From NCBI RefSeq assembly GCF_018127805.1, contig NZ_CP072334.1, positions 908,001-972,000 on the forward strand: DNA of 64,000 nt, written 5' to 3'. A model generated the notes under the pieces. The model saw only the letters and a program-made list of their open reading frames with translations, was not told the origin of the DNA and did no database searches. Positions within the stretch are counted from its first letter, which is position 1; each line of letters opens with the position of its first letter. Below, one piece after another: positions 47,339-63,980 of the stretch. This DNA comes from Prevotella sp. oral taxon 475 (lineage in GTDB: Bacteria; Bacteroidota; Bacteroidia; Bacteroidales; Bacteroidaceae). Both the position numbers and the translations under genes were made by a program.

Positions 47339-47368
47339 TTTGGAATCATTCAGTTTTTTGTACTTTTG
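47339..47368 (+). promoter_or_regulatory. promoter of the Ala/Lys-rich helical protein gene
   Basis: TTTG (47339-47342), 18 bases, then TACTTTTG (47361-47368). The start codon at 47471 is about 100 bases downstream, so the longer frame from 47366 cannot be the real one. Confidence 0.65.
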
Positions 47369-47470
47369 CATAAAATAAGCGAGCATATTCGTTTGAGATT
47401 AGAGTTTTCATCAGACATGGTTGATATGCCGATTGTGTCATTTTTTAATTATTTATTTATATATAAGAGT

Positions 47471-48046
47471 ATGGAGAGATTTTTCCTAACAGTTGCAGCT
47501 TCGATTTTGATCTCTGTTGCAAGTGCATCGGCTCAGTCGGTAAATACGGGTTCTGCGGTTGCCAGTGCTCAGAAAGCAGTAGTAGATGCTGCTAAAGCGA
47601 AAGCTGATGCAGCTAAGGCTGTTGCAGAAGCAGCAAAACAAAAGGCCGAGGCCGCTAAGGCAAAGGCCGATGCTGCTAAGGCAAAAGCAGACGCAGAGAA
47701 AGCAAGAATTGATTCTGAAAAGGCAAAGGCTGATTCGGAAGTAGCAAAAGCAGATGCAGCTACGGCAGCTGCTGACGCACAGAAGGCACTGGCTGCTGCA
47801 ACAAAAGCGAAAGTTGATGCAGAAAAAGCCTTGGCTAATGCTACTGCAAGTAGAGCTGCTGCAGAGAAAGCAAAGGCCGATGCTGCCAAGGCTAAGGCCG
47901 ATACGGAGAAAGCTGTGGCTGATGCGGCAAAAGCTAAGGCAGAATCGGACAAGGCAAAAGCAGACATCGCAAAAGCTAAAGCAGATGCAGCAGCAGCAGT
48001 TTCGGCCGCAAGTTCTGCTATTGAAAAGGCAAAGTCGTCTTATTAA
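47471..48046 (+). CDS. exported Ala/Lys-rich single-helix (coiled-coil) protein
   Basis: A 191-residue protein with a clear signal peptide (MERFFLTVAASILISVASASAQ). Nearly all of the mature part is built from Ala, Lys, Asp and Glu in units such as KAKADAAKAKADAEKA. The pattern resembles the helical stalk of TolA or LEA-like proteins, and would form a helix some 20 nm long if straight. No membrane anchor, lipobox or globular domain is present. I do not recognise a named family. It has its own promoter and two hairpins after it, and precedes the envelope operon. A periplasmic spacer or filament role is inference. The DNA is itself repetitive and may vary in length between strains. Confidence 0.8.
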   Translation: MERFFLTVAASILISVASASAQSVNTGSAVASAQKAVVDAAKAKADAAKAVAEAAKQKAEAAKAKADAAKAKADAEKARIDSEKAKADSEVAKADAATAAADAQKALAAATKAKVDAEKALANATASRAAAEKAKADAAKAKADTEKAVADAAKAKAESDKAKADIAKAKADAAAAVSAASSAIEKAKSSY

Positions 48047-48483: not shown

Positions 48484-49974
48484 ATGAATAAGAAATGGCT
48501 GGTATTTATATTGAGTGCGATGGTGTGCACTCCCGTCTTTTCGAAGGATGACTTGTTGCACAGTAGTGAGTTGCAAGTAATAGCTTCTCTTCTTGCGGAT
48601 AGTCCAGATTTTGCAAAGGGTAACGCTGAGAAGCTGATAAAGAAAAATAGCGATAATACAGACTTGATCGCTGCTATCGGCTCCATTTACCTGAAAGCAG
48701 GAAAAGTGGATGATGCTGCTGAGTATTTTCGTAGGGCACAACGTTGCAAGAGAATCAGTACTAAAGCAATTAACTTAGGAGGCGATATTGCTATTGCAAA
48801 GAATAATGTAGATTCAGCCAGGTATTATTATGAGCGTTCTATCTATTTTGATAGAAAAGATCCAGATGGTTATTACAAGTATGCCAACTTGTTGAAAACA
48901 ACAGATATGAGTAAGGCTGTGGAAGTCTTGACTCTCTTGAAAAAGAATAGGCCTGACTTGAATGTCGATAAACAAATTGCTGAAATTTATTATACAGCTA
49001 ATGATATAGATAAGGCAATTGCCGGATATGAAGCTATAGGTGTAGATTCCCTTGATGATAGAGAGTTGATGCAGTATGCATTGAGTCAATTTATTAAAAA
49101 GGAGTATGAGAAATCACTTCAATTGGCAACAATTGGTCATCAACGGAATGCCGAAGATCCTATTTTTAATCGTCTCTTGTTGTATAACAATACCGAACTT
49201 CAACACTACGATGAGGCAATTAAAAATGCAGACGACTTGTTGAATCATAGCAAGGATGCAAAGTTGCAATACCAAGATTACATTTACTATGGTTATGCAC
49301 TCAACGGTTTGGGTAGAACACAAGATGCAATTGATCAGTTTAATGTTGCTTTACAGAAAAATTCAGACTTGTTTGACATCAACAAACAGGTTTCTGAAGC
49401 TTATGCACGCATTCAAGATTTTGATAATGCCATCAAGTATTACCGTATCTATATTGGTAAGATAAAGGATGACAATGAGACAAAAGCTTATGAGATGTAC
49501 CAGTTGGGTAGACTCTATTGGCGAAAAGGCATTACAAATAGCGGTAAAGTGCTGACACCTGAACAAACACAGGCACTTGAAGAGGCAGGAAAAACTTTTG
49601 GAGAAGTGGCTGCATTGCGTCCCAACAGTTATTTGGGCTATTATTGGCAGGGTAAAGTAAATACGTTGCTTGACCCTGAATATAAGAAAGGATTGGCTCG
49701 TCCTTACTTTATGAAAGCTGTTGAACTGCTTGAGAAGAGCGGAGGAAATAAAGATCAGTTGATAGAATGTTATAAACAGTTGGCTTATTACTACTATTTG
49801 CAGAAAGAGGGTAGTACGGCAATTGTTTATGCTAAGAAGATTGAAGCTTTGGATCCTGATGATGACTTTGCAAAGCAATTGATTGCTAATGCGCAAACGC
49901 TCAGCGAAACAAAAAGTGTAAAAGGCACAAAGAATACAGGTAAGAGAAATAAGAAGATAACTAAGCGCAGATAA
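48484..49974 (+). CDS. exported TPR-repeat protein, first gene of the envelope operon
   Basis: A 496-residue protein with a signal peptide (MNKKWLVFILSAMVCTPVFSK) and no lipobox, so periplasmic or loosely membrane-associated. Most of the chain is TPR-type helical repeats; AAIGSIYLKAGKVDDAAEYFRRA, YIYYGYALNGLGRTQDAIDQF and KQVSEAYARIQDFDNAIKYY are clear units. The C-terminus is basic (TGKRNKKITKRR). TPR proteins act as protein-binding scaffolds. Gene spacing to the next (10 bases) shows an operon with four envelope protein genes ending in the multi-barrel gene. The role is probably assembly or anchoring of those proteins, which is inference from context. Codon use is AT-rich compared with the first 40 kb. 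Confidence 0.85.
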   Translation: MNKKWLVFILSAMVCTPVFSKDDLLHSSELQVIASLLADSPDFAKGNAEKLIKKNSDNTDLIAAIGSIYLKAGKVDDAAEYFRRAQRCKRISTKAINLGGDIAIAKNNVDSARYYYERSIYFDRKDPDGYYKYANLLKTTDMSKAVEVLTLLKKNRPDLNVDKQIAEIYYTANDIDKAIAGYEAIGVDSLDDRELMQYALSQFIKKEYEKSLQLATIGHQRNAEDPIFNRLLLYNNTELQHYDEAIKNADDLLNHSKDAKLQYQDYIYYGYALNGLGRTQDAIDQFNVALQKNSDLFDINKQVSEAYARIQDFDNAIKYYRIYIGKIKDDNETKAYEMYQLGRLYWRKGITNSGKVLTPEQTQALEEAGKTFGEVAALRPNSYLGYYWQGKVNTLLDPEYKKGLARPYFMKAVELLEKSGGNKDQLIECYKQLAYYYYLQKEGSTAIVYAKKIEALDPDDDFAKQLIANAQTLSETKSVKGTKNTGKRNKKITKRR

Positions 49975-49984
49975 TTTTTTGATT

Positions 49985-51412
49985 ATGATAAAGTCACGAG
50001 GACATAGACTGATACTATTGTTCCTATTGCTGTTTGGCTGTGGAACATCAGTAACCTTTGGACAGGTAAATCTGTTATATTATAATAAGGTAGATACCTT
50101 AAGCTTTGGGCAACGGTTTAACCTTAAGTCTAATTTTGTAGACTGGGTTACACTAACGCCTAACTTGGGTGTGGAATTTGCTCTTAACAATAAAAACTGG
50201 AACCTTTGGACAGTCGGCATGTATGGGCGTTTTAATTGGAATACGAATTCAAAGGAGAATGCTTATTATGTTTACGACTTAATGGGCGGACGTTTGGAAT
50301 TGCGCAGATATTGGCATTCACGCATGCCTAAAAGAGTTTTTTATGTTGGCGTGTATGGTGGTGCGAATAAGTTTGACATCAAGTTGAGTGGCACAGGTAA
50401 GAAAGGTCAGTCTTTTGTAGGTGGTCTCATGTTTGGTACTGTTTCTCAACTTTATGGTTATCAAAATGGTGCTCGGTTGGATTTAGACTTAGGAATCAAT
50501 GCCGGTGTCGTGTTTGCTAAGTGGCATGAATATAAGCGCGAACTGATTGGAGATAAATATGTCTATACCGTTACTGAGCCGGAAAATGACTATCAACTGA
50601 CGTTCTCTCCTTGGATCTATGCGGCATCGACAGATATTTTGAATGTGTCGTTAGTATATCATTTCGGTACAAAATTGTCCAATAGGTATAAGAAACGGCT
50701 CCAGATTGATAACAACTATCGTATTGCACTTGAAGCTGCCAAGGTGAGACGCGACAGTATCAATACTGTTCTTGAAAAGATGAGACGACATAGAGCAGAC
50801 TCTTTGGAAAAGGTTGATTACGAGAAACGTTTTGAACAGCAGCATCTTGAACTGGAAAGAAAATATCAGAATGATTCTTTACGCAAAGTTAATGAGGTGT
50901 TACGTGAAGAACAACTTAAAGAACGAGCTGAAGCTAAGCGCGTAGCCGACTCTTTGAAAGTTGTAGAACGCGAAAAGGCCATTGAGGAGAGAGCTAATGC
51001 TAAACGTATGGCCGACTCGCTGAAAGTGGTAAACGCTGAAAAGGCAAAAGAAGAGAGATTGCAGAAAGGACAAGAACGTGAGAATGCCAAAAGAACTGCA
51101 GATTCTCTGCGGGTTGTCCAAAAGAATCAAGAACAGGAAGCACAACTCCAAAAGGCTAAGGCTAAGGAAGATGCTAAACGTGAACGCGACTCTCTGAAGC
51201 AGGCCAATGAATTGAAACGACAAGAAGCCATAAAGGCCAAAGAAGAAGAAAAAGAACTGAAAAAGCGGAAGAAAGCTGAGGAAAAGACCAATAAGGAAAA
51301 GAAAGAAAACTCTAAAGATGCTACTCCCGCTGTAAGTGAAAATAGTTCAACGGAGAACAATAGTTCGGAGTCTGATAAGCAGGAAGAGTCTACCGATAGA
51401 AATAAGGAATAA
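49985..51412 (+). CDS. DUF3575-type outer-membrane barrel protein with long periplasmic coiled coil
   Basis: A 475-residue protein. After a signal peptide ending SVTFGQ, about 200 residues look like an 8-strand beta-barrel of DUF3575 type: FNLKSNFVDWVTLTPNLGVEF, LWTVGMYGRFNWN, MGGRLELRRYW, VFYVGVYGGANKF and ILNVSLVYHFG. From about residue 245 to 435 comes a highly charged coiled coil with a recurring AKRxADSLKVV unit roughly every 28 residues, then a Ser/Asn/Glu-rich tail. This would place a barrel in the outer membrane with a long helical arm in the periplasm, possibly reaching peptidoglycan or the TPR protein. ATG at 49985 fits better than the TTG at 49979. Second gene of the operon; the next starts 8 bases later. 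Confidence 0.78.
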   Translation: MIKSRGHRLILLFLLLFGCGTSVTFGQVNLLYYNKVDTLSFGQRFNLKSNFVDWVTLTPNLGVEFALNNKNWNLWTVGMYGRFNWNTNSKENAYYVYDLMGGRLELRRYWHSRMPKRVFYVGVYGGANKFDIKLSGTGKKGQSFVGGLMFGTVSQLYGYQNGARLDLDLGINAGVVFAKWHEYKRELIGDKYVYTVTEPENDYQLTFSPWIYAASTDILNVSLVYHFGTKLSNRYKKRLQIDNNYRIALEAAKVRRDSINTVLEKMRRHRADSLEKVDYEKRFEQQHLELERKYQNDSLRKVNEVLREEQLKERAEAKRVADSLKVVEREKAIEERANAKRMADSLKVVNAEKAKEERLQKGQERENAKRTADSLRVVQKNQEQEAQLQKAKAKEDAKRERDSLKQANELKRQEAIKAKEEEKELKKRKKAEEKTNKEKKENSKDATPAVSENSSTENNSSESDKQEESTDRNKE

Positions 51413-54444: not shown

Positions 54445-57400
54445 ATGAAAAAGAGATTCTTTGTCGTATTGACCGCGATGGTATTGCCTCTTATCTCAGA
54501 GGCAAAGGTACTTTCTCTGGCAAGCAACAATAATGTCTATACAAATATTCCTTCTGTGGTATTGCAGCGTGATACAGTGGTGAAGGACTTGGAGGATTTG
54601 GAAGCAATGATGCCTGATACAGTCTTACAACCTGACACGATTGTCGTCAGCCTTCCTGCTCCTAAAGGATATAATGGACTTAAATTTGTCTTGGACCGTC
54701 GACATCGCTATGTTGGTGATAAGTTTATTGATAAGGGCCTCTTGGGGCATACCTATCTTGACTTTGGAGGAGGTGTAACCAATTATCTTCAGAACGGATC
54801 CTTTCGTTATACACCCTTTGCCAACTTGCATCTTGGATTAGGAAAAGATTTGAGTCCGATGAGCTCTTTGCGTCTCTCGGTTGAGGGAAGCTGGGGATTT
54901 ACCAAGGGAGAAGGAACCATCTCCTCACTGACTACATTCAAATCCTTGGGTGTAAATGTAGACTATCTGTTTAATTTCACCAACTACATGTTAGGCTATC
55001 GACCGGAACGCCCTTTGACAGTTTCGGGTGTGATGGGATTAGGACTGCAAACAGCCAAACTTTCAGCAACCGAACTGAGCTCTGTTACCAATTACGTACA
55101 GACATCAGGCTTTTCGTATGGAGCACGTTTTGGTCTGCAATTCAAATACGCAACAAGTCCGCATGCCTTTCTTGCCCTTGAACCCTTTGTGAAGGTTGGT
55201 TCTCGTAAGCAGGATTTGGTTCCAGGCTCTAAGTTTGATCGAATGGACTTTGGCTATGGTGCCAACCTCTCTTATATATGGTATTTCTGGCCGGAATTGT
55301 CTAAGCAGAAAGATGCTGGTGATTTCATGAAGCGTTTTGAAGAAGGAGAAAGATTCTTCTATGAGACCTATGCCAAGAAACATTGGCGTAGACCTATGTT
55401 CTTTGATTACAGCATTGGCCCGGTGTTCTACAATCACACTGCATTGCCAATGGGGAAATCTGTCGGTTATACGGCCAACGCTTATTTTGGTTGGTGGTTA
55501 TCTTCGGCAATAGGTCTTCGTACAGGTCTTCATATTTCTAATGCCGATTGGACGAATAATTCAAGTGTAGTCGGTTTTCGTTTGCCGTCAAAGAGTTTAT
55601 TAGGAACGCGTGGTGCGGTACTCGATTTTCTCTTTAATCCTTTCGGGTTCAAGCGTAACTATGATTGGGATAGCAAGGTAGGTATGAACCTGATTGCCGG
55701 CTACGAGTTTGGACGGATAAAGGTTGTAAATCCCGCGCATAACGACTACGTAAAAGGTAATTATGTTGGCTATCGTTTAGGTAGTCAACTTTGGATGAAG
55801 CTTACCAACGATCTTCGCTTGAATATAGAGCCCACTTATTCTTTCTTAGAGTTCTATAAAGGTACTTCTGAGCGCAAGCAGTTTGATGAATTGGCCTTGA
55901 AGTTAGGTTTGACAGTACTCTTCAGAGATAACTTTAGCCGTGAGAAGTTCAATTTGGATAGCATTGAGGTAAAAGACCGCTATGCGCAACAGCAAGGTTT
56001 CTTCTTTGGCTTAGGTATGGGTTGGAATACAACGGTACACACTTGGAGATACGCTAATGGTAATAATCCCTTGCTCAAGAATGGCGTTCTTTTCGGAGGA
56101 TACAACCTCAACGAATATCACGGTATTCGGCTGAGTGGTGAATATTTAAGTGATCAAGTAGCAGTACCCGCAACCTTTGGTGGTGGTGTGCAAAACGAGA
56201 CACTTAGAAACACCGTCCTCTCATTAGATTATCAGTTGAATTTATTAAATGCTGTTGCTGGATATAATCCCTATCGTCGGTGGGGCACTTACATCTATGG
56301 TGGTCCTGCATTGGCATTAGGAAGTGGTGGCACAGCTTTCGCCTTGAATTTCGGTGGAATGCTTACCTATCAGGTCAATCGCGACTTGGCCTTATTCTAC
56401 AGTCATACCGTTTACAGAATGCCTAAAGATCGTTACGTCTTTTCACAAGTGTATCGCAAGGAAGGAACCTTTGTAAACAGTCTCAATGTTGGTTTACTGT
56501 ACAACTTCAACCGTCCGGCCTTTGGCGAGAATGGAGCGTTGGTTGCCGATTACAGCCATCAGCCTCTCATGTTTGAGTATAGCGTCGGACCGGTATGGTA
56601 TAATAATGTAGAGAATTCAATGGGTAGCTCATTGGGCTACACTGCTAATGCCAATATCGGGTGGTGGCTCAATTCCTTTGTTGGTGCTCGTGCCGGTGTT
56701 CACATCAGCAATGCCGATTGGGCTCACGATGCCTTTATGCCTCGTAAGAATCAGTTGGGCTTCTTTGCCGGAACGCTTGATTTGATGCTCAACCCGATGG
56801 GAATTACCCGCATCTATAATTGGAATCAACCTGCCGGTTTCAACCTCTTCATTGGTGCCGGACTGGGTAAAGTGCGTTTCGTTACGGACAGCAAATCGGC
56901 TTATGAAAGTAAATTCAGAGAATTGCGCCTGGGTGCACAGTTTTGGCTGAAGCTTACCGACGATTTACGTCTGAACCTCGAACCCACTTATTCGATGTTA
57001 GGTGGATTCACCGGAGCAAAAGTCGTGGATAAAGCGGACGAACTGGCGATGAAGGTCGGAGTCTCTATGTTATTGCGCGACAAGAGCAATGATAAGAAGG
57101 AAAATGAGGCAGCAGAAGACTACCGCCCCAATGGTTTCTTCTTCGGAGCCGGACTTGGTTGGAATACCACCGTGCACACTTGGCGTCCCACAGGGCAGGG
57201 CTTCCAATTACTGAAGAACGGCCTGTTCTTTGGTGGGTATAAAGTGAACGAGTATCATGGCCTGCGTTTGAGTGGGGAATATCTTGCCGATAAGGTTTGG
57301 AACGACCTGGGCGGTGGAAACATGGTTGCTCAGAAGTTTAACAATACGTTGCTTTCACTTGATTATCAGTTTGACATATTCAATGCCCTTGCCGGCATCC

Positions 57401-59952
57401 GTCCGGGTCGTCGTTGGGATGCATCGCTCTACATCGGTCCGTCATTGGCATTGGGCAAGGAGGGAACGCAGCTGGCTTGGAATTTTGGAGGTATTCTCTC
57501 CTATCAGCTCAGTCGCAGCTTGGCTCTCTTCTATAGCCACACCGTCTATCGGATGAGCAAAGAACGTTACAAGACGGCACAGGTATATCGCACGCCGGGA
57601 ACGATTGTCAATAGCTTGAACGTCGGTGTGCTGTACAATCTCAATCGTCCTGCTTTCGGCAAGGAAGGGCTCTTGGTTACCGATTATACCCGTCAGCCTT
57701 TGTTCCTCGAGTATAGCATAGGTCCGGCTTGGTTCAACAAGCTTGATCTCTCCATGGGAAGTTCGTTGGGTTATACCGCCAATGCCAATATCGGTTGGTG
57801 GCTGAACTCGGCAATCGGTGTTCGTGGTGGCGTTCATATCAGCAATGCCGACTGGACACACGATGCTACCGGAGCACCCCGCAAGAATCAGTTAGGATTC
57901 TTAGCCGGAACGCTCGACTTGATGTTCAACCCGTTGGGTATGACTCATATTTACGACTGGAATCAACCTATGGGCTTCAACCTCTTTGCTGGAGCAGGAA
58001 TGGGTAAGATTCGTTTTGTTACGGCCAAGGACAAGGCCTACGAAGGTCGGTTCAGAGAGTTCCGCATGGGTGCTCAGTTCTGGGTAAAACTCTGCAACGA
58101 CCTGCGCCTGAACATCGAGCCCACTTATTCCATGTTAGGAGGATTCAGTGGTGCAAAGGTCGTGGATAAGACCGACGAGTTGGCCATGAAAGTTGGTGTG
58201 TCGATGCTGTTACGCGATAAGAGTAATGATAAGAAGGATGATGCTGCAGAGGTAGAGTCGCCCAATGGTTTCTTCCTCGGAGCCGGACTCGGTTGGAACA
58301 CCACCGTGCATACTTGGCGTCCCACAGGACAAGGGTTCCAACTGTTAAAGAATGGTTTGTTCTTTGGTGGCTATAAGGTGAATGAGTATCATGCCGTACG
58401 TTTGAGTGGTGAATATCTCACCGACAAAGTATGGGATTCTTACGGTCGTGGCGACATGACGGCACAGAAATTCGATAACACCTTGCTTTCGCTCGACTAT
58501 CAGTTCAACATCTTCAACGCCTTTGCCGGCATTCGTCCGGGGCGTCGTTGGGGAGCCTCGCTCTACACCGGTCCTACATTGGCATTGGGCAAGGCAGGAA
58601 CGCAGTTTGCTTGGAACTTCGGTGGAATCCTCACCTACAATGTCAGCCGCAACTTGGCTCTCTTCTATAGCCATACGATTTATCGCCTGAGCAAGGAGCG
58701 TTACAATACGCCACAGGTGTACCGCACCCCAGGAACGATTGTCAATAGCTTGAATCTCGGTGTGATGTACAACATCAACAAGGCGGCCTTCGGTAAAGAA
58801 GGTGCATTGGTGGCCGACTATGCTCACCAGCCGGTATTCTTCGAGTACAGTGTAGGTACAGCGATGTTCAACAAGGTAGACCTCTCTATGGCTGGAACAA
58901 CTGGCTATAACGCCAATGCCAATTTGGGTTGGTGGCTCAACTCGGCACTCGGGTTCCGTGGTGGTGTGCAGATTAGTAATGCCGACTGGTCTTATGATGC
59001 CGTAGAACAGCGCACCAATCAGTTGGGTTATTTTGCCGGAACGCTCGACCTCATGTTCAATCCGCTTGGTTTCAAGCGCATTTACAATTGGAATGCTCCT
59101 GCCGGGTTCAACCTCTTCCTTGGAGGCGGCTTGGGTAAGATTCGTTTTGTCACTGGTCGTGAGCAGGCCTACGAGAGCAAATTCCGTGAGCTGCGTCTTG
59201 GTACACAGTTCTGGCTACGTTTGGCACAGGGATTACGCCTCAACTTCGAGCCCACTTATTCGATCATGGGCGGATTCGAGGATGACAACCGACCCGTTGC
59301 CAGAACCAACGAACTGGCCCTCAAGTTAGGTATGTCTGTCATGCTCAACGATAAGGCTGCCGATAAGAAGGGCGAGCAATACACGGGCGAAGACTATGCC
59401 TCTACTGGTTTCTTCCTTGGAGCCGGTGCAGGTTGGAACACCGCTGTTCATACTTGGCGCACGGCCGGACAAAGCTCGTCGCCCATTAAGAACGGATTGT
59501 TCTTTGCCGGATTTAAGTTTGACGACTACAGTGCAGTGCGTGCCAGCGGTGAATATCTCACCGATAAGGTTACTACCAAGTATGGTGCAACCGCCATTGA
59601 TCAAAAGTTCAACAACACGCTTGTGTCACTGGGCTACCAGTTCGATATTCTTAATGCGCTGGGTGGCATCAATCCTTCGCGTCGTTGGGATGTAGGTCTC
59701 TACACCGGTCCTTCGCTCGCTTTGGGCGACAAAGGCACGGAGTTTGCTTGGCACTTCGGTGGTACTTTCAGCTATCACATCAGTCGCACTCTTTCGCTCT
59801 TCTATAACCATATGGTTTACCGCATGAGCAAAGAACGCTACCAGTCGTTGCAGATTTACCGCACGCCGGGTACTTTCGTCAACAGCCTCAACTTCGGTTT
59901 GATGTTGAGCATCGGTTCTCGTTCAAAAACGAATAACGCGAGCCGCCGATAA
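54445..59952 (+). CDS. giant tandem outer-membrane beta-barrel protein (about nine 8-strand modules)
   Basis: A 1835-residue protein with a signal peptide (MKKRFFVVLTAMVLPLISEAK) and no domain other than amphipathic beta-strands. The first module (about residues 90-310) is distinct. Then modules alternate: A begins at about 318, 707, 1085 and 1463 (start like PLMFEYSVGPVWYN), and B at about 518, 897, 1275 and 1655 (start like GFFFGAGLGWNTTVHTW). A and B are each about 190 residues with eight predicted strands. An A+B pair repeats every 378 residues, and copies are very similar. Charged linkers (such as DKSNDKKENEAAED) join A to B; short ones join B to A. It could form nine small barrels or one 8-strand plus four 16-strand barrels. 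I know of no family of this form. Last gene of the operon. Confidence 0.85.
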   Translation: MKKRFFVVLTAMVLPLISEAKVLSLASNNNVYTNIPSVVLQRDTVVKDLEDLEAMMPDTVLQPDTIVVSLPAPKGYNGLKFVLDRRHRYVGDKFIDKGLLGHTYLDFGGGVTNYLQNGSFRYTPFANLHLGLGKDLSPMSSLRLSVEGSWGFTKGEGTISSLTTFKSLGVNVDYLFNFTNYMLGYRPERPLTVSGVMGLGLQTAKLSATELSSVTNYVQTSGFSYGARFGLQFKYATSPHAFLALEPFVKVGSRKQDLVPGSKFDRMDFGYGANLSYIWYFWPELSKQKDAGDFMKRFEEGERFFYETYAKKHWRRPMFFDYSIGPVFYNHTALPMGKSVGYTANAYFGWWLSSAIGLRTGLHISNADWTNNSSVVGFRLPSKSLLGTRGAVLDFLFNPFGFKRNYDWDSKVGMNLIAGYEFGRIKVVNPAHNDYVKGNYVGYRLGSQLWMKLTNDLRLNIEPTYSFLEFYKGTSERKQFDELALKLGLTVLFRDNFSREKFNLDSIEVKDRYAQQQGFFFGLGMGWNTTVHTWRYANGNNPLLKNGVLFGGYNLNEYHGIRLSGEYLSDQVAVPATFGGGVQNETLRNTVLSLDYQLNLLNAVAGYNPYRRWGTYIYGGPALALGSGGTAFALNFGGMLTYQVNRDLALFYSHTVYRMPKDRYVFSQVYRKEGTFVNSLNVGLLYNFNRPAFGENGALVADYSHQPLMFEYSVGPVWYNNVENSMGSSLGYTANANIGWWLNSFVGARAGVHISNADWAHDAFMPRKNQLGFFAGTLDLMLNPMGITRIYNWNQPAGFNLFIGAGLGKVRFVTDSKSAYESKFRELRLGAQFWLKLTDDLRLNLEPTYSMLGGFTGAKVVDKADELAMKVGVSMLLRDKSNDKKENEAAEDYRPNGFFFGAGLGWNTTVHTWRPTGQGFQLLKNGLFFGGYKVNEYHGLRLSGEYLADKVWNDLGGGNMVAQKFNNTLLSLDYQFDIFNALAGIRPGRRWDASLYIGPSLALGKEGTQLAWNFGGILSYQLSRSLALFYSHTVYRMSKERYKTAQVYRTPGTIVNSLNVGVLYNLNRPAFGKEGLLVTDYTRQPLFLEYSIGPAWFNKLDLSMGSSLGYTANANIGWWLNSAIGVRGGVHISNADWTHDATGAPRKNQLGFLAGTLDLMFNPLGMTHIYDWNQPMGFNLFAGAGMGKIRFVTAKDKAYEGRFREFRMGAQFWVKLCNDLRLNIEPTYSMLGGFSGAKVVDKTDELAMKVGVSMLLRDKSNDKKDDAAEVESPNGFFLGAGLGWNTTVHTWRPTGQGFQLLKNGLFFGGYKVNEYHAVRLSGEYLTDKVWDSYGRGDMTAQKFDNTLLSLDYQFNIFNAFAGIRPGRRWGASLYTGPTLALGKAGTQFAWNFGGILTYNVSRNLALFYSHTIYRLSKERYNTPQVYRTPGTIVNSLNLGVMYNINKAAFGKEGALVADYAHQPVFFEYSVGTAMFNKVDLSMAGTTGYNANANLGWWLNSALGFRGGVQISNADWSYDAVEQRTNQLGYFAGTLDLMFNPLGFKRIYNWNAPAGFNLFLGGGLGKIRFVTGREQAYESKFRELRLGTQFWLRLAQGLRLNFEPTYSIMGGFEDDNRPVARTNELALKLGMSVMLNDKAADKKGEQYTGEDYASTGFFLGAGAGWNTAVHTWRTAGQSSSPIKNGLFFAGFKFDDYSAVRASGEYLTDKVTTKYGATAIDQKFNNTLVSLGYQFDILNALGGINPSRRWDVGLYTGPSLALGDKGTEFAWHFGGTFSYHISRTLSLFYNHMVYRMSKERYQSLQIYRTPGTFVNSLNFGLMLSIGSRSKTNNASRR
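55396..59949 (+). repeat. four intragenic A+B module repeats of about 1134 bp
   Basis: The pair begins at about 55396 (A1), 56563 (A2), 57697 (A3) and 58831 (A4), with B halves from 55996, 57133, 58267 and 59407. The A2-A3 and A3-A4 steps are exactly 1134 bp. Nearly identical blocks of DNA (for example around CGCGACAAGAGCAATGATAA, present in A2 and, with small changes, A3) make recombination between copies likely. Confidence 0.88.
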
Positions 59953-60218: not shown

Positions 60219-60297
<79 letters not shown>

Positions 60298-60755: not shown

Positions 60756-60989
60756 ATGAAAAGAAATCAAGTCAGCGGTCGAGCCTACTGCTCGCCCCAA
60801 ATTCAAATCATGTGTTTGCAACAGGAGGTGGGCCTACTGGCCGCCAGTCCCCAGGTGCAGCCCGGAGGGGGCGGTGGCGGAACCGTTCATGTCAATCCTG
60901 CACCCGAGGATAACGAAGACGGCGACAACGAAGTGGCCGGTGCCAAACCCTGGAGCGGATGGGTTTGGGAGGAAGAGACCATTGAGTAG
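60756..60989 (+). CDS. small Gly-rich, acidic peptide upstream of the fimbrillin gene
   Basis: A 77-residue protein (MKRNQVSGRAYCSPQIQIMCLQQEVGLLAAS, then PQVQPGGGGGG, then an acidic tail ending WVWEEETIE). It has no classical signal peptide. The pattern of short basic start, Pro-Ile, a hydrophobic stretch ending LLAAS and a low-complexity acidic tail is one I associate with small proteins common in Bacteroidales, often placed before large surface lipoprotein genes. Function is unknown. It lies 180 bp before the fimbrillin-like gene, and its stop codon is the first word of a TAGTAAG repeat. A leader-peptide or partner role is possible. Confidence 0.65.
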   Translation: MKRNQVSGRAYCSPQIQIMCLQQEVGLLAASPQVQPGGGGGGTVHVNPAPEDNEDGDNEVAGAKPWSGWVWEEETIE

Positions 60990-61059
60990 TAAGTAGTAAG
61001 AAGTAAAGTAGTAAAGGTAGTAAGTAGTAAAAGAAGTAAGTAGTAAAGTAGTAAGTAGT
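60984..61059. repeat. low-complexity AGTAAGTAGTAAAG repeat
   Basis: Degenerate copies of AGTAGTAAG and AAGTAGTAAAGTAG fill the start of the 180-bp gap between the small peptide gene and the fimbrillin gene. The rest of the gap holds nothing clear. Confidence 0.7.
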
Positions 61060-61169: not shown

Positions 61170-63980
61170 ATGAAACATTCCTATTCCATTCTTCATCGAT
61201 GCCTTGCCGCCATGCTGGCCGGCATCGCCTGTTTGTCCATCGGTTCCTGTGCCGACGACAATACCAGTAACCAACAAGTGCAGGGTGACCGTGGCGTAAA
61301 CGTCTCTTTCGATGTGAGCACCGCACAGGAAAACCGACTGTCCCAGCCGCAGAGTGCCCCCGCCACGCGTGCTGCCATCATTGCCCGCCAGCAGGCACAA
61401 GGCCTTTCGAGTGAAGACCTGGCCACGCGTCGCCTTGAAGTGCAAGGTCTGCCCAACACCTGCCTGATCGAAACTACCACCGAGGGCATCAACGCCGTGC
61501 TGCCCCAACCTGGTACACGGGCCAGCGTGAAAACCGCCATCGACGCCCGCTTCAGTTCGCTGGGCTATCGCAGCGCGACGGCCGGCTTTACGGTGGGCCG
61601 CCCCGAATGGTTCTACAGTGCTCCCACCAACGCTGCCGGTACCTTGGTCACGCCGCTTCAATGGGCCTGGACTCAACGCTATGCCCGCTTCTATGCGGTC
61701 TATCCCGAGGCCACCACGGCCAACGGCATCGCCCTCTCGCCTACCACGCATAGCGGCACCCCTTATCTCGATTTCGAGGTCAAGCCGAACATCACCGACC
61801 AAGTCGACCTCATGGTGGCCTGTTCGGGCGAAGTAGAGTATGCCACACGCCACCAAGCCCCCAAGACCAACCTCGAGTTCTATCACGCCCTCACGGCCGT
61901 GAAGATCGCTGTAGGTCAGAACCTCTCGTGGAACAAACACATCACGAAGGTAGAACTGCGCAACGCCTGCAGCAAAGGTCGGCTTCAACTCACGGATAGC
62001 ACCAACGGTAAGGGCTTGCAATGGACAGTGGATGCCGGCTCGAAAACGAACTTCTCGCTCGCCCTGGGCATTCCTGGCATCAGCACGAGCAGTCTGCCCA
62101 ATCAGGTGCTCGTAGGTAAGGATAACGACAGTTATACGTTCTACATGCTTCCGCAATCCTTGGCTGGCATCACCCTTCATATTGAGTTCAGCGATGCAGC
62201 CAACATCAACATTCCTTTGAGCGGTACCTGGCGACCTGCCACCACGCGTACCTACAAACTGAGCAACACCACCAGCAATTGGAACTATAGCTTTACGGTG
62301 ACGAGCCCCACCACCGCTGCAGCCTACAACGAGACCAACGGCGGCACGTACACTGTGGAGAGCTTCCGCACCGACCCTTCCGATCCCAGTGTGAAACACG
62401 CAGTAGGATGGAAGATTGTAGGCTACGAGGAATACAACTATGCCACGAACGCCTGGGAGGACAAAGGCATGAACAAGCCCGACTGGTTGGAGGGCTTGAG
62501 TAACGTCCGCACCCAAACCGAGAACTATACGGCAGCCGATCAGGGGCAGGCGACGATCAAGAAGATGCCTATGAAAGACCTGCTCAAAGAGCGCAACGAT
62601 GCCCTCAAGCTTGGTCCCAAGGGCACTTCCTCCGCCTATTACGACCTTTCGATGCATGACATCAAGGGCAACGCCCGCGCTACGCGCAGCACGGCCAACT
62701 GCTATGTCATCTCTCACCCGGGCTTTTACAAACTGCCCTTGGTGTATGGCAACGCCATTACTAATGGAATAAACAATACCGCGTCCTACACCTATAACGG
62801 CAGCCTCACCGACCCTAACATTGGCTACGTGTTGAAGAACTTTAAAGACCATAATGGTCAGAACATCACCGACCCGTGGATTGAAAAGACGAACGGCGGA
62901 GCCAACAACGGCATCGATGGTGCACAGATTGTTTGGGAAGACGAGAAAGACTTGGTACACTTCGATGCCAATCCCATTGAACGTAGTGGCAATGAAACCT
63001 ACTTAAAGTTCGAAGTAAAGGCGGCCGATATCAAAAGCGGCAATGCCGTGGTGGCGGTCAAGAAAGGCAATATCATCGTATGGTCTTGGCACTTGTGGTT
63101 TGCACCCGATTATGTACTCGACCCCATCCCCGTGATCAACCACAGCGGCTCTCATACCTATAACTTCTCCACCGAAAATCTGGGTTGGAAATGCACCTCT
63201 TGGAATGGTTCAGTTCAGCAACAGCCTCGTCGGGTAAAAGTGCGCATTCAGCAGTTAGTCTCTCATCAGCCGGGCGACATCGTTATCACGCAGCATCCCG
63301 GTAGCACAAAAGTGGGTTATAACACGTTCTACCAGTGGGGTCGCAAGGATGCTTTCCCCGGTGGATTGACCGGAAACACTGAGCCTACTCTCTATCCCGT
63401 CGGTCAGCTGTTCAAGAAGAACGAGGGCGACAACATGTCCATCACCAATGGTATTCAAAACCCCGGTAGCTTCTACACTTCGGGTACTTCCTGGTCTAGC
63501 AATCCTCCTGCGGGTTACTCTTATTATAACCTATGGTCTGCCAATAATACCACAACGCAGATTCCTAATACCGGTAATGACCTTCCCGTGGTCAAAACGG
63601 TTTACGACCCCAGTCCTGTCGGCTTCCACCTGCCTGCCAACAACGCCTTCACACGGTTTACCACTACAGGACTCAATTCCACTAAGGCAGAAGAAATGAA
63701 CGTGCAGGGTACAAAAGATGCCACCAACTTCAATACTAACTTTGGTTGGAACTTCTTTACCGACGGCAGCAATACCTCTACGATCTTTTTCCCCGCTTCG
63801 GGCAGTCGTGCCAACAACGATGGTTCGCTCGGCAGCGTGAGAACTGCCGGTTGGTATTGGTCGGCCGTTCCGAGCAGCATGAGTGACGCTTGCTTCCTGT
63901 TCTTCATCTCGAATCCCGTGGTTCCGCTGAATATCGACACTCGGTGTTATGGTTTGACCGTGCGGCCCGTGACGGAATAA
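61170..63980 (+). CDS. fimbrillin-family (Mfa-like) surface lipoprotein with a FISUMP-like C-terminus
   Basis: A 936-residue lipoprotein (signal ending LSIGSC, Cys27). The region after it resembles fimbrillin-like proteins: PATRAAI, then a beta-sandwich stretch with PEWFYSAP, WTQRYARFYAVYP, VDLMVACSGEV and FYHALTAVKIAVGQN (about 40-370), as in Mfa-type subunits. The middle (about 370-680) is beta-rich and unassigned. The C-terminal 130 or so residues (DPSPVGFHLPANNAF, then GWYWSAVPSS and CYGLTVRPVTE) look like a fibrobacter-major-paralogous (FISUMP) domain. It is probably surface-exposed and may be a large tip or adhesin subunit. It is GC-rich compared with the operon before it. No other fimbrial genes are in view. 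Confidence 0.82.
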   Translation: MKHSYSILHRCLAAMLAGIACLSIGSCADDNTSNQQVQGDRGVNVSFDVSTAQENRLSQPQSAPATRAAIIARQQAQGLSSEDLATRRLEVQGLPNTCLIETTTEGINAVLPQPGTRASVKTAIDARFSSLGYRSATAGFTVGRPEWFYSAPTNAAGTLVTPLQWAWTQRYARFYAVYPEATTANGIALSPTTHSGTPYLDFEVKPNITDQVDLMVACSGEVEYATRHQAPKTNLEFYHALTAVKIAVGQNLSWNKHITKVELRNACSKGRLQLTDSTNGKGLQWTVDAGSKTNFSLALGIPGISTSSLPNQVLVGKDNDSYTFYMLPQSLAGITLHIEFSDAANINIPLSGTWRPATTRTYKLSNTTSNWNYSFTVTSPTTAAAYNETNGGTYTVESFRTDPSDPSVKHAVGWKIVGYEEYNYATNAWEDKGMNKPDWLEGLSNVRTQTENYTAADQGQATIKKMPMKDLLKERNDALKLGPKGTSSAYYDLSMHDIKGNARATRSTANCYVISHPGFYKLPLVYGNAITNGINNTASYTYNGSLTDPNIGYVLKNFKDHNGQNITDPWIEKTNGGANNGIDGAQIVWEDEKDLVHFDANPIERSGNETYLKFEVKAADIKSGNAVVAVKKGNIIVWSWHLWFAPDYVLDPIPVINHSGSHTYNFSTENLGWKCTSWNGSVQQQPRRVKVRIQQLVSHQPGDIVITQHPGSTKVGYNTFYQWGRKDAFPGGLTGNTEPTLYPVGQLFKKNEGDNMSITNGIQNPGSFYTSGTSWSSNPPAGYSYYNLWSANNTTTQIPNTGNDLPVVKTVYDPSPVGFHLPANNAFTRFTTTGLNSTKAEEMNVQGTKDATNFNTNFGWNFFTDGSNTSTIFFPASGSRANNDGSLGSVRTAGWYWSAVPSSMSDACFLFFISNPVVPLNIDTRCYGLTVRPVTE

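Follow-up and report, generated by a model that had tools for sequence, protein, structure and literature searches.

A chain of nine probable small outer-membrane barrels encoded in a conserved Bacteroidales gene set

To our knowledge, solved outer-membrane proteins carry one barrel per chain. In the 2021 multi-barrel study of Solan et al., eight-strand combinations are said to prevail, and the multi-barrel chains reportedly go back to lineage-specific fusion and amplification. The GfcD paper (PMC11494523) describes multi-barrel outer-membrane proteins as introduced in 2021 and presents GfcD itself with predicted 12- and 13-strand barrels and a periplasmic domain between them. Like GfcD and the 2021 proteins as described there, the protein analyzed here probably has more than one membrane barrel per chain, but where GfcD has two large barrels the present family has 3-13 small similar ones, and some near-identical members of the family differ by two or four barrels, unlike GfcD in that description. 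With nine eight-strand modules, recognized from sequence, family and coevolution, it fits the multi-barrel class, which is defined by more than one barrel domain per chain. The initial annotation had called such a chain unusual; it is rare rather than unheard of, since multi-barrel proteins have been described since 2021, as the GfcD paper reports. What seems to be new is the number of barrels, the two-barrel steps and the operon, the comparison with the 2021 set being one by description only. A literature search, with most subscription journals outside its scope, gave no paper on this multi-barrel family among the titles listed, and no functional study of the gene set.

The window, i.e. the whole stretch of 64,000 nucleotides that was analyzed, belongs to a source genome assembled as one contig of 2.56 Mb. 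The gene is a single open frame with an ATG start, and open frame, self-comparison and module map together gave the following features, where the signal peptide is putative, as judged from the sequence letters.

54445..59952, + strand, predicted multi-barrel outer-membrane protein, 1835 aa, nine modules
54445..54744, + strand, putative signal peptide (about residues 1-20) and N-terminal stretch preceding the first barrel (sequence inspection)
54745..55293, + strand, module N, first barrel, residues 101-283
55390..55929, + strand, module A1, residues 316-495
55993..56514, + strand, module B1, residues 517-690
56560..57081, + strand, module A2, residues 706-879
57130..57648, + strand, module B2, residues 896-1068
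57694..58218, + strand, module A3, residues 1084-1258
58264..58782, + strand, module B3, residues 1274-1446
58828..59352, + strand, module A4, residues 1462-1636
59404..59919, + strand, module B4, last barrel and the protein's best PF13505 stretch, residues 1654-1825

About 80 residues lie between the signal peptide and module N, the first strand of which begins at residue 101, and a tail of ten residues follows B4. The modules measure 172-183 residues between their outer strands, or about 190 with linkers, and the spacing is 390 residues for the first A+B pair and 378 for the others. Charged residues (DEKR) make up 38-56% of the A-to-B linkers and 47% of the N-to-A1 linker, while the three B-to-A linkers are less charged (13-27%) and share a pattern like PAFGxxGxLVxDY. 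The division into a signal peptide, one distinct module and four A+B pairs, with halves of about 190 residues and charged linkers between A and B, had been proposed from the letters of the sequence and is borne out by the self-comparison and the module map.

Comparison of the protein with itself gave diagonals near offsets 378/379, 756 and 1135-1146, and at offset 378 the identity is 27% across the entire chain. The A copies are 42-76% and the B copies 48-81% identical in protein, and the DNA of the repeat copies is 53-79% identical. Because the copies have diverged in this way and have no identical DNA run longer than 23 bases, the repeats are old, and an assembly artefact does not account for them. 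Five protein comparisons between N, A and B gave identities of 22-30%. Profiles built from the window's own copies did not show a relation between A and B (hhalign probability 0.2%, E 0.3) and gave 2% for N-A and a weak link of 44% (E 2e-4) for N-B. In the wider family, profiles begun from each of the three came to match the other types at E 1e-4, and since these iterated profiles ran together, their comparisons do not separate the types and N, A and B are used here as labels by position. The probable kinship of A and B is thus drawn from the wider family and not from the window copies by themselves.

For the analysis of the strands, 945 non-redundant modules were pooled, of which 937 were used (effective number 742). 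An eight-strand meander has seven neighbour hairpins, and at h=4 all of them fall among the eight strongest antiparallel signals, the remaining one being an extension of the strand 5-6 hairpin. Compared with 20 non-neighbour strand pairs, all of which they exceeded, the seven hairpins had z values of 3.6 to 10.4 by mean-field at h=4, and pseudo-likelihood on the pooled set gave 4.8 to 11.7 against the same kind of pairs. Antiparallel neighbour-strand signals were also obtained for the N, A and B types when each was analyzed separately. Hydrophobic alternation follows the family's phase in 68 of the 72 strands of the window protein, the phase having been set on 2089 other modules that include relatives of the protein, and strand 7 alternates as expected in only five of the nine modules. 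Meander and alternation together bear out the earlier count of eight amphipathic strands per module. From strand ranges set by hand, the presumed outer loops of A1 have 9, 14, 10 and 12 residues and its turns 3, 11 and 2, and the corresponding values for B1 are 12, 15, 4 and 13, and 3, 10 and 1. The strongest long-range coupling in the pooled set (pseudo-likelihood) is D102-R150, between strands 4 and 6.

As for the family to which the modules belong, the whole protein scored 59.6 bits against the Pfam model PF13505 (OMP_b-brl), well above its gathering score of 28.7, in agreement with the initial lead to OMP_b-brl; the Pfam model, in distinction from the chain, covers one barrel of 175 positions. 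Single modules remained below the Pfam cutoffs, and their sub-threshold matches were chiefly to small barrels (OMP_b-brl, OmpA_membrane, PagL, Opacity), with one match to DUF4528 at E 0.15. Of 24 module rows from alignment A3, eight matched OMP_b-brl at E <=0.1, and the three other families matched were barrels. A five-module profile searched at the level of the order matched, with E values between 9e-11 and 3e-14, proteins whose open frames span 378-404 aa; these single-barrel Bacteroidales proteins have one module each. They have glycines, G-K-W, G-x-R and D-x-x-x-N-x-x-N in common with the modules in the alignment. Each module resembles the single barrel of the Bacteroidales OmpA-family proteins (open frames 374-413 aa), but these consist of one barrel with PF00691 behind it, as found in the one relative scanned in Pfam, and the chain here has nine barrels and, with the whole protein scanned in Pfam at E 0.1, no PF00691. 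A module profile compared with the PDB listed 13 sequences at E 0.35-3.2, eight of which are or carry outer-membrane barrels (EstA one, OmpA five, OmpX two; solved 8-strand barrels at E 0.72 to 3.2) and the rest chance matches. PDB sequence searches gave nothing significant, with dehydrogenases at E 0.38-0.43. Taken together, the PF13505 match, the likeness to single OmpA-type barrels, the coevolution meander, the amphipathic strands and the name "outer membrane beta-barrel protein" carried by two Segatella relatives support a chain of outer-membrane barrels.

Two other identities were considered and rejected, namely the type IX secretion protein PorG (NF052316, 15.6 bits against a cutoff of 130) and sulfite reductase, for which an NCBIfam match lay far below its cutoff and a plant enzyme in the PDB matched at E 0.43. 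A PADLOC scan gave no match, and among phage records there was one weak place (E 1e-5, 24% identity).

Relatives were collected by protein searches with three queries: the full chain, its residues 1-698 and an alignment of 18 relatives. Candidates were capped in number and limited by length, and at E <=1e-3 the queries found at least 850 of 7996, at least 40 of 8000 and at least 169 of 7999 scored proteins, respectively. Of 399 genomes from the source organism's family, 120 have a match to the window protein at E 1e-3, single-barrel OmpA-type proteins included, and 91 a match to the alignment A2 profile at E 1e-20. The five-module profile matches in 24 of 295 genomes of the order (E 1e-10) and in 4 of 296 genomes of the phylum (E 1e-6), the own genome being counted in both. 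Among the named relatives are Hoylesella saccharolytica, H. marshii and two Segatella species. Searches and genome loci together gave 191 non-redundant proteins, 15 with one module and 176 with more, the latter having 3 (127 proteins), 5 (33), 7 (6), 9 (5), 11 (3), 13 (1) or 2 (1) modules. The gene neighbourhoods of 16 and a further 60 loci contained 74 complete ORFs with at least two modules, distributed as 2 (3 ORFs), 3 (23), 4 (11), 5 (20), 6 (1), 7 (11), 8 (1), 9 (3) and 13 (1), where two of the 2-module ORFs and one 3-module ORF are pieces of one frame-broken gene. A structural rule of odd counts, which 175 of the 176 proteins would obey, had to be rejected with the wider set, where 13 of the 74 complete ORFs have 4, 6 or 8 modules. 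We claim no parity constraint, because even counts exist and recombination between like repeats would explain steps of two.

Copy number was compared in five near-identical protein pairs of unequal length picked from the tree. Four of them are 98.8-99.2% identical over the common part and differ by a single gap, of 378, 379, 376 and 778 residues, which amounts to whole A+B units; the fifth (P0133 and P0018, gap 1055) was set aside because the shorter protein is possibly truncated. One longer protein, P0001, is 99.2% identical to the window protein besides an extra unit that is itself 98% identical to its neighbour, and such near-identical units can be misassembled. No whole-unit gap separates the window protein from two further near-copies, of 1834 and 1829 aa. 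When 74 A+B pairs were placed in a tree, label changes numbered only 4 for the 27 first pairs but 8 each for the 21 last and the 26 middle pairs. The separation of the last pairs is therefore less strict than that of the first, and several chains have middle pairs that are near-copies of one another.

Some of the relatives deserve mention in their own right. The one with the most modules is a 2568-residue open frame with 13 of them (locus L043, 7496-15199, genome G053), which matches PF13505 in two stretches at E 0.01 and in seven at E 1. Four-module relatives of 788-789 aa occur in five genomes of one genus (L140, L141, L161, L162, L163), each with an OmpA-like gene immediately upstream. In Hoylesella marshii (L002, 9995-16235) the multi-barrel gene lies in three overlapping frames, as a result of either breakage or sequencing errors.

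The initial annotation had left it open whether the chain forms nine small barrels or, after an N barrel of 8 strands, four 16-strand A+B barrels, which would be real pores. The latter arrangement requires pairing across the A-B boundary, between A strand 8 and B strand 1 and between A strand 1 and B strand 8, and coevolution was therefore analyzed over A+B by mean-field (250 rows) and by pseudo-likelihood (343 rows) against 102 control blocks. By mean-field at h=4, strands 1 and 8 of A were coupled with z 2.7 (2/102 controls as high) and strands 1 and 8 of B with z 1.8 (4/102), while neither A strand 8-B strand 1 (z -1.0, 87/102) nor A strand 1-B strand 8 (z -0.1, 54/102) showed coupling. Pseudo-likelihood at h=4, in which alignment and method differ, gave z 2.2 (4/102) for closure of A and 2.8 (2/102) for closure of B, with z -0.3 for both cross-pairings (60/102 and 58/102); the two tests are not independent, because most sequences are common to both. 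At h=2, with shorter bands, the closure of A and B was weaker (z 1.1 and 0.9 by mean-field, 0.7 and 1.7 by pseudo-likelihood). In an alignment across the boundary with the module before A, no cross-pairing with A was seen (z -0.7 and -1.4), and closure of A had z 1.8 (7/102). Closure of strands 1 and 8 was absent from the mixed N/B set (z 0.2 at h=4, 39/102), and in the pooled set the closure band did not rise above controls (z 0.1-0.4 by mean-field, 0.6-1.5 by pseudo-likelihood), though D33-T200, a strand 1-8 pair in the expected register, is the tenth strongest coupling there at a separation of at least 25 (pseudo-likelihood). These values are to be read with the facts that related sequences inflate coevolution scores and that the strand blocks were set by eye from sequence and hairpin signals, after hit lists had already shown the A strand 1-8 signal and, in one list, that of B. 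That each module closes into a barrel of its own is thus supported but not proven by the coevolution data.

From self-closure within A and within B above most controls, and from the missing cross-pairing, which is a coevolution and not a structural result, we moderately favour nine 8-strand barrels over the arrangement with 16-strand barrels, and consider the latter unlikely. It would agree with A+B being both the repeat unit and the copy-number unit and with the odd module numbers of 175 of the 176 non-redundant multi-module relatives, most of which come from length-limited searches, but like-repeat recombination would likewise give steps of two, similar modules exist singly, and the more distant relatives with 4, 6 or 8 modules (13/74) have numbers that fit it less readily, even if these modules too are possibly paired. 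Pore formation was reported for a fused OmpX duplicate (Arnold 2007), which is a further point for paired barrels. That the chain lies outside the membrane altogether, as a row of beta-rich domains such as those of a secreted or surface repeat adhesin, appears very improbable in view of the likeness to OmpA-type barrels, the membrane-type alternation in 68/72 strands and the antiparallel eight-strand meander. Large repeat surface proteins are common and variation in copy number is typical of adhesins, and fimbrillin-like genes lie close by in some loci, all of which would fit such a chain.

The multi-barrel gene is preceded in the window by four genes on the same strand, separated by gaps of 4-28 bases in the presumed operon, and is followed across a 1.2 kb gap by a fimbrillin-like ORF, which may or may not be part of the system.

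48484..49974, + strand, TPR-repeat protein, 496 aa, first gene of the presumed operon
49979..51412, + strand, DUF3575 protein with a long charged C-terminal part, 477 aa
51421..51987, + strand, small DUF3575 protein, 188 aa
52005..54416, + strand, OmpA-like protein, 803 aa, PF00691 match below gathering score
61170..63980, + strand, fimbrillin-like protein, 936 aa, sub-threshold FISUMP match

An OmpA-like and a small DUF3575 gene stand upstream of each multi-barrel gene in the first 16 loci. Among the 72 ORFs with at least three modules, an OmpA-like gene lies within 3.5 kb upstream, mostly adjacent, in 67, a DUF3575 gene within 10 kb in 66 and a TPR gene nearby in 9, the neighbour-gene profiles having been iterated on the same stretches that were used for counting; the five without an OmpA-like gene have a small DUF3575 ORF immediately upstream. 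"OmpA-like" is a label of convenience, since these proteins match PF00691 below its gathering score, with a match in only three of the nine relatives scanned (E 0.01). The early suggestion of DUF3575 holds for adjoining genes of the operon, which match PF12099 in Pfam, and fails for the multi-barrel protein, in which the Pfam scan gave no PF12099 match; the small DUF3575 protein, for its part, has a weak OMP_b-brl match (E 0.051). In one genome (G093; L044, 1480-14692) the set of small DUF3575, OmpA-like and multi-barrel genes occurs twice in tandem, with five modules in each multi-barrel gene.

A refinement of the preferred reading is that the conserved gene set encodes a type V fimbria-like surface-fibre system with the barrel chain as its outer-membrane base, a suggestion that we make tentatively. 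Proteins matching Mfa_like_1 (PF13149) are encoded upstream of the small DUF3575 gene in L035, L036, L041 and L046, out of seven loci with ORFs scanned for this match, but the scanned ORFs of L034, L038 and L042 lack PF13149, even if an iterated profile listed one L038 ORF. In the window a fimbrillin-like protein lies downstream, at 61170, and matches the iterated profile with 28 bits; no fimbrillin-like gene was identified upstream in the window's operon. The iterated profile found such an ORF in only 16 of the 72 loci, in examined stretches that were often short. In the transcriptome table of PMC10434189, B. thetaiotaomicron BT4227 (Mfa1 C-terminal) and BT4233-4236 (DUF3868, DUF3575) have neighbouring numbers, which also points towards fibres.

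The reading that we prefer, with a probability of about 0.78, is one of nine separate eight-strand OmpA-type barrels on one outer-membrane chain with a scaffold role and with a copy number set by recombination. Its signal peptide would direct export, and each of the nine eight-strand modules would then form a separate barrel in the outer membrane, joined to the next by a periplasmic linker of 15-32 residues and with both ends facing the periplasm. Eight-strand barrels are as a rule plugged, and a salt bridge within a narrow barrel would agree with the D102-R150 coupling; transport is therefore unlikely. The gene order suggests instead that the array serves as a scaffold or multivalent anchor for surface assembly and not as pores; the row of repeated surface loops and periplasmic linkers would anchor or organize a surface structure, with the OmpA-like and DUF3575 proteins and, in some genomes, the fimbrillin-like proteins encoded alongside as candidate partners. 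Recombination between like repeats (A/A, B/B) would add or remove two barrels at a time, mostly in mid-chain. A wider picture, in which a tandem array of up to 13 linked barrels, varying by two between strains, is the platform of an uncharacterized Bacteroidales surface machine together with OmpA-like, DUF3575 and fimbrillin-like proteins, is conceivable and somewhat short of probable.

Nine barrels in one chain, and 13 in one relative, raise the question of how the barrel-assembly machinery folds and releases consecutive barrels, and also what a membrane-embedded repeat array serves. The two-barrel steps between near-identical proteins offer natural length variants for testing both folding and role, and with its conserved neighbours an orphan repeat protein becomes part of a recognizable Bacteroidales envelope gene set.

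The DNA around the operon contains three further repeats. A perfect (AC)23.5 run lies between the multi-barrel and the fimbrillin-like gene (60249-60295), and dinucleotide runs of this kind can vary in length and act as phase switches. Heptamer-like AGTAGTA repeats (60985-61059) precede the fimbrillin-like ORF, which starts at 61170, by about 110 bases, and changes in their length could alter a promoter there. Finally, 47366-48046 encodes an Ala/Lys-rich protein with internal repeats of 21/42 bases; H. saccharolytica (L001) and genome G178 (L033) each have a relative of this protein in the corresponding position.
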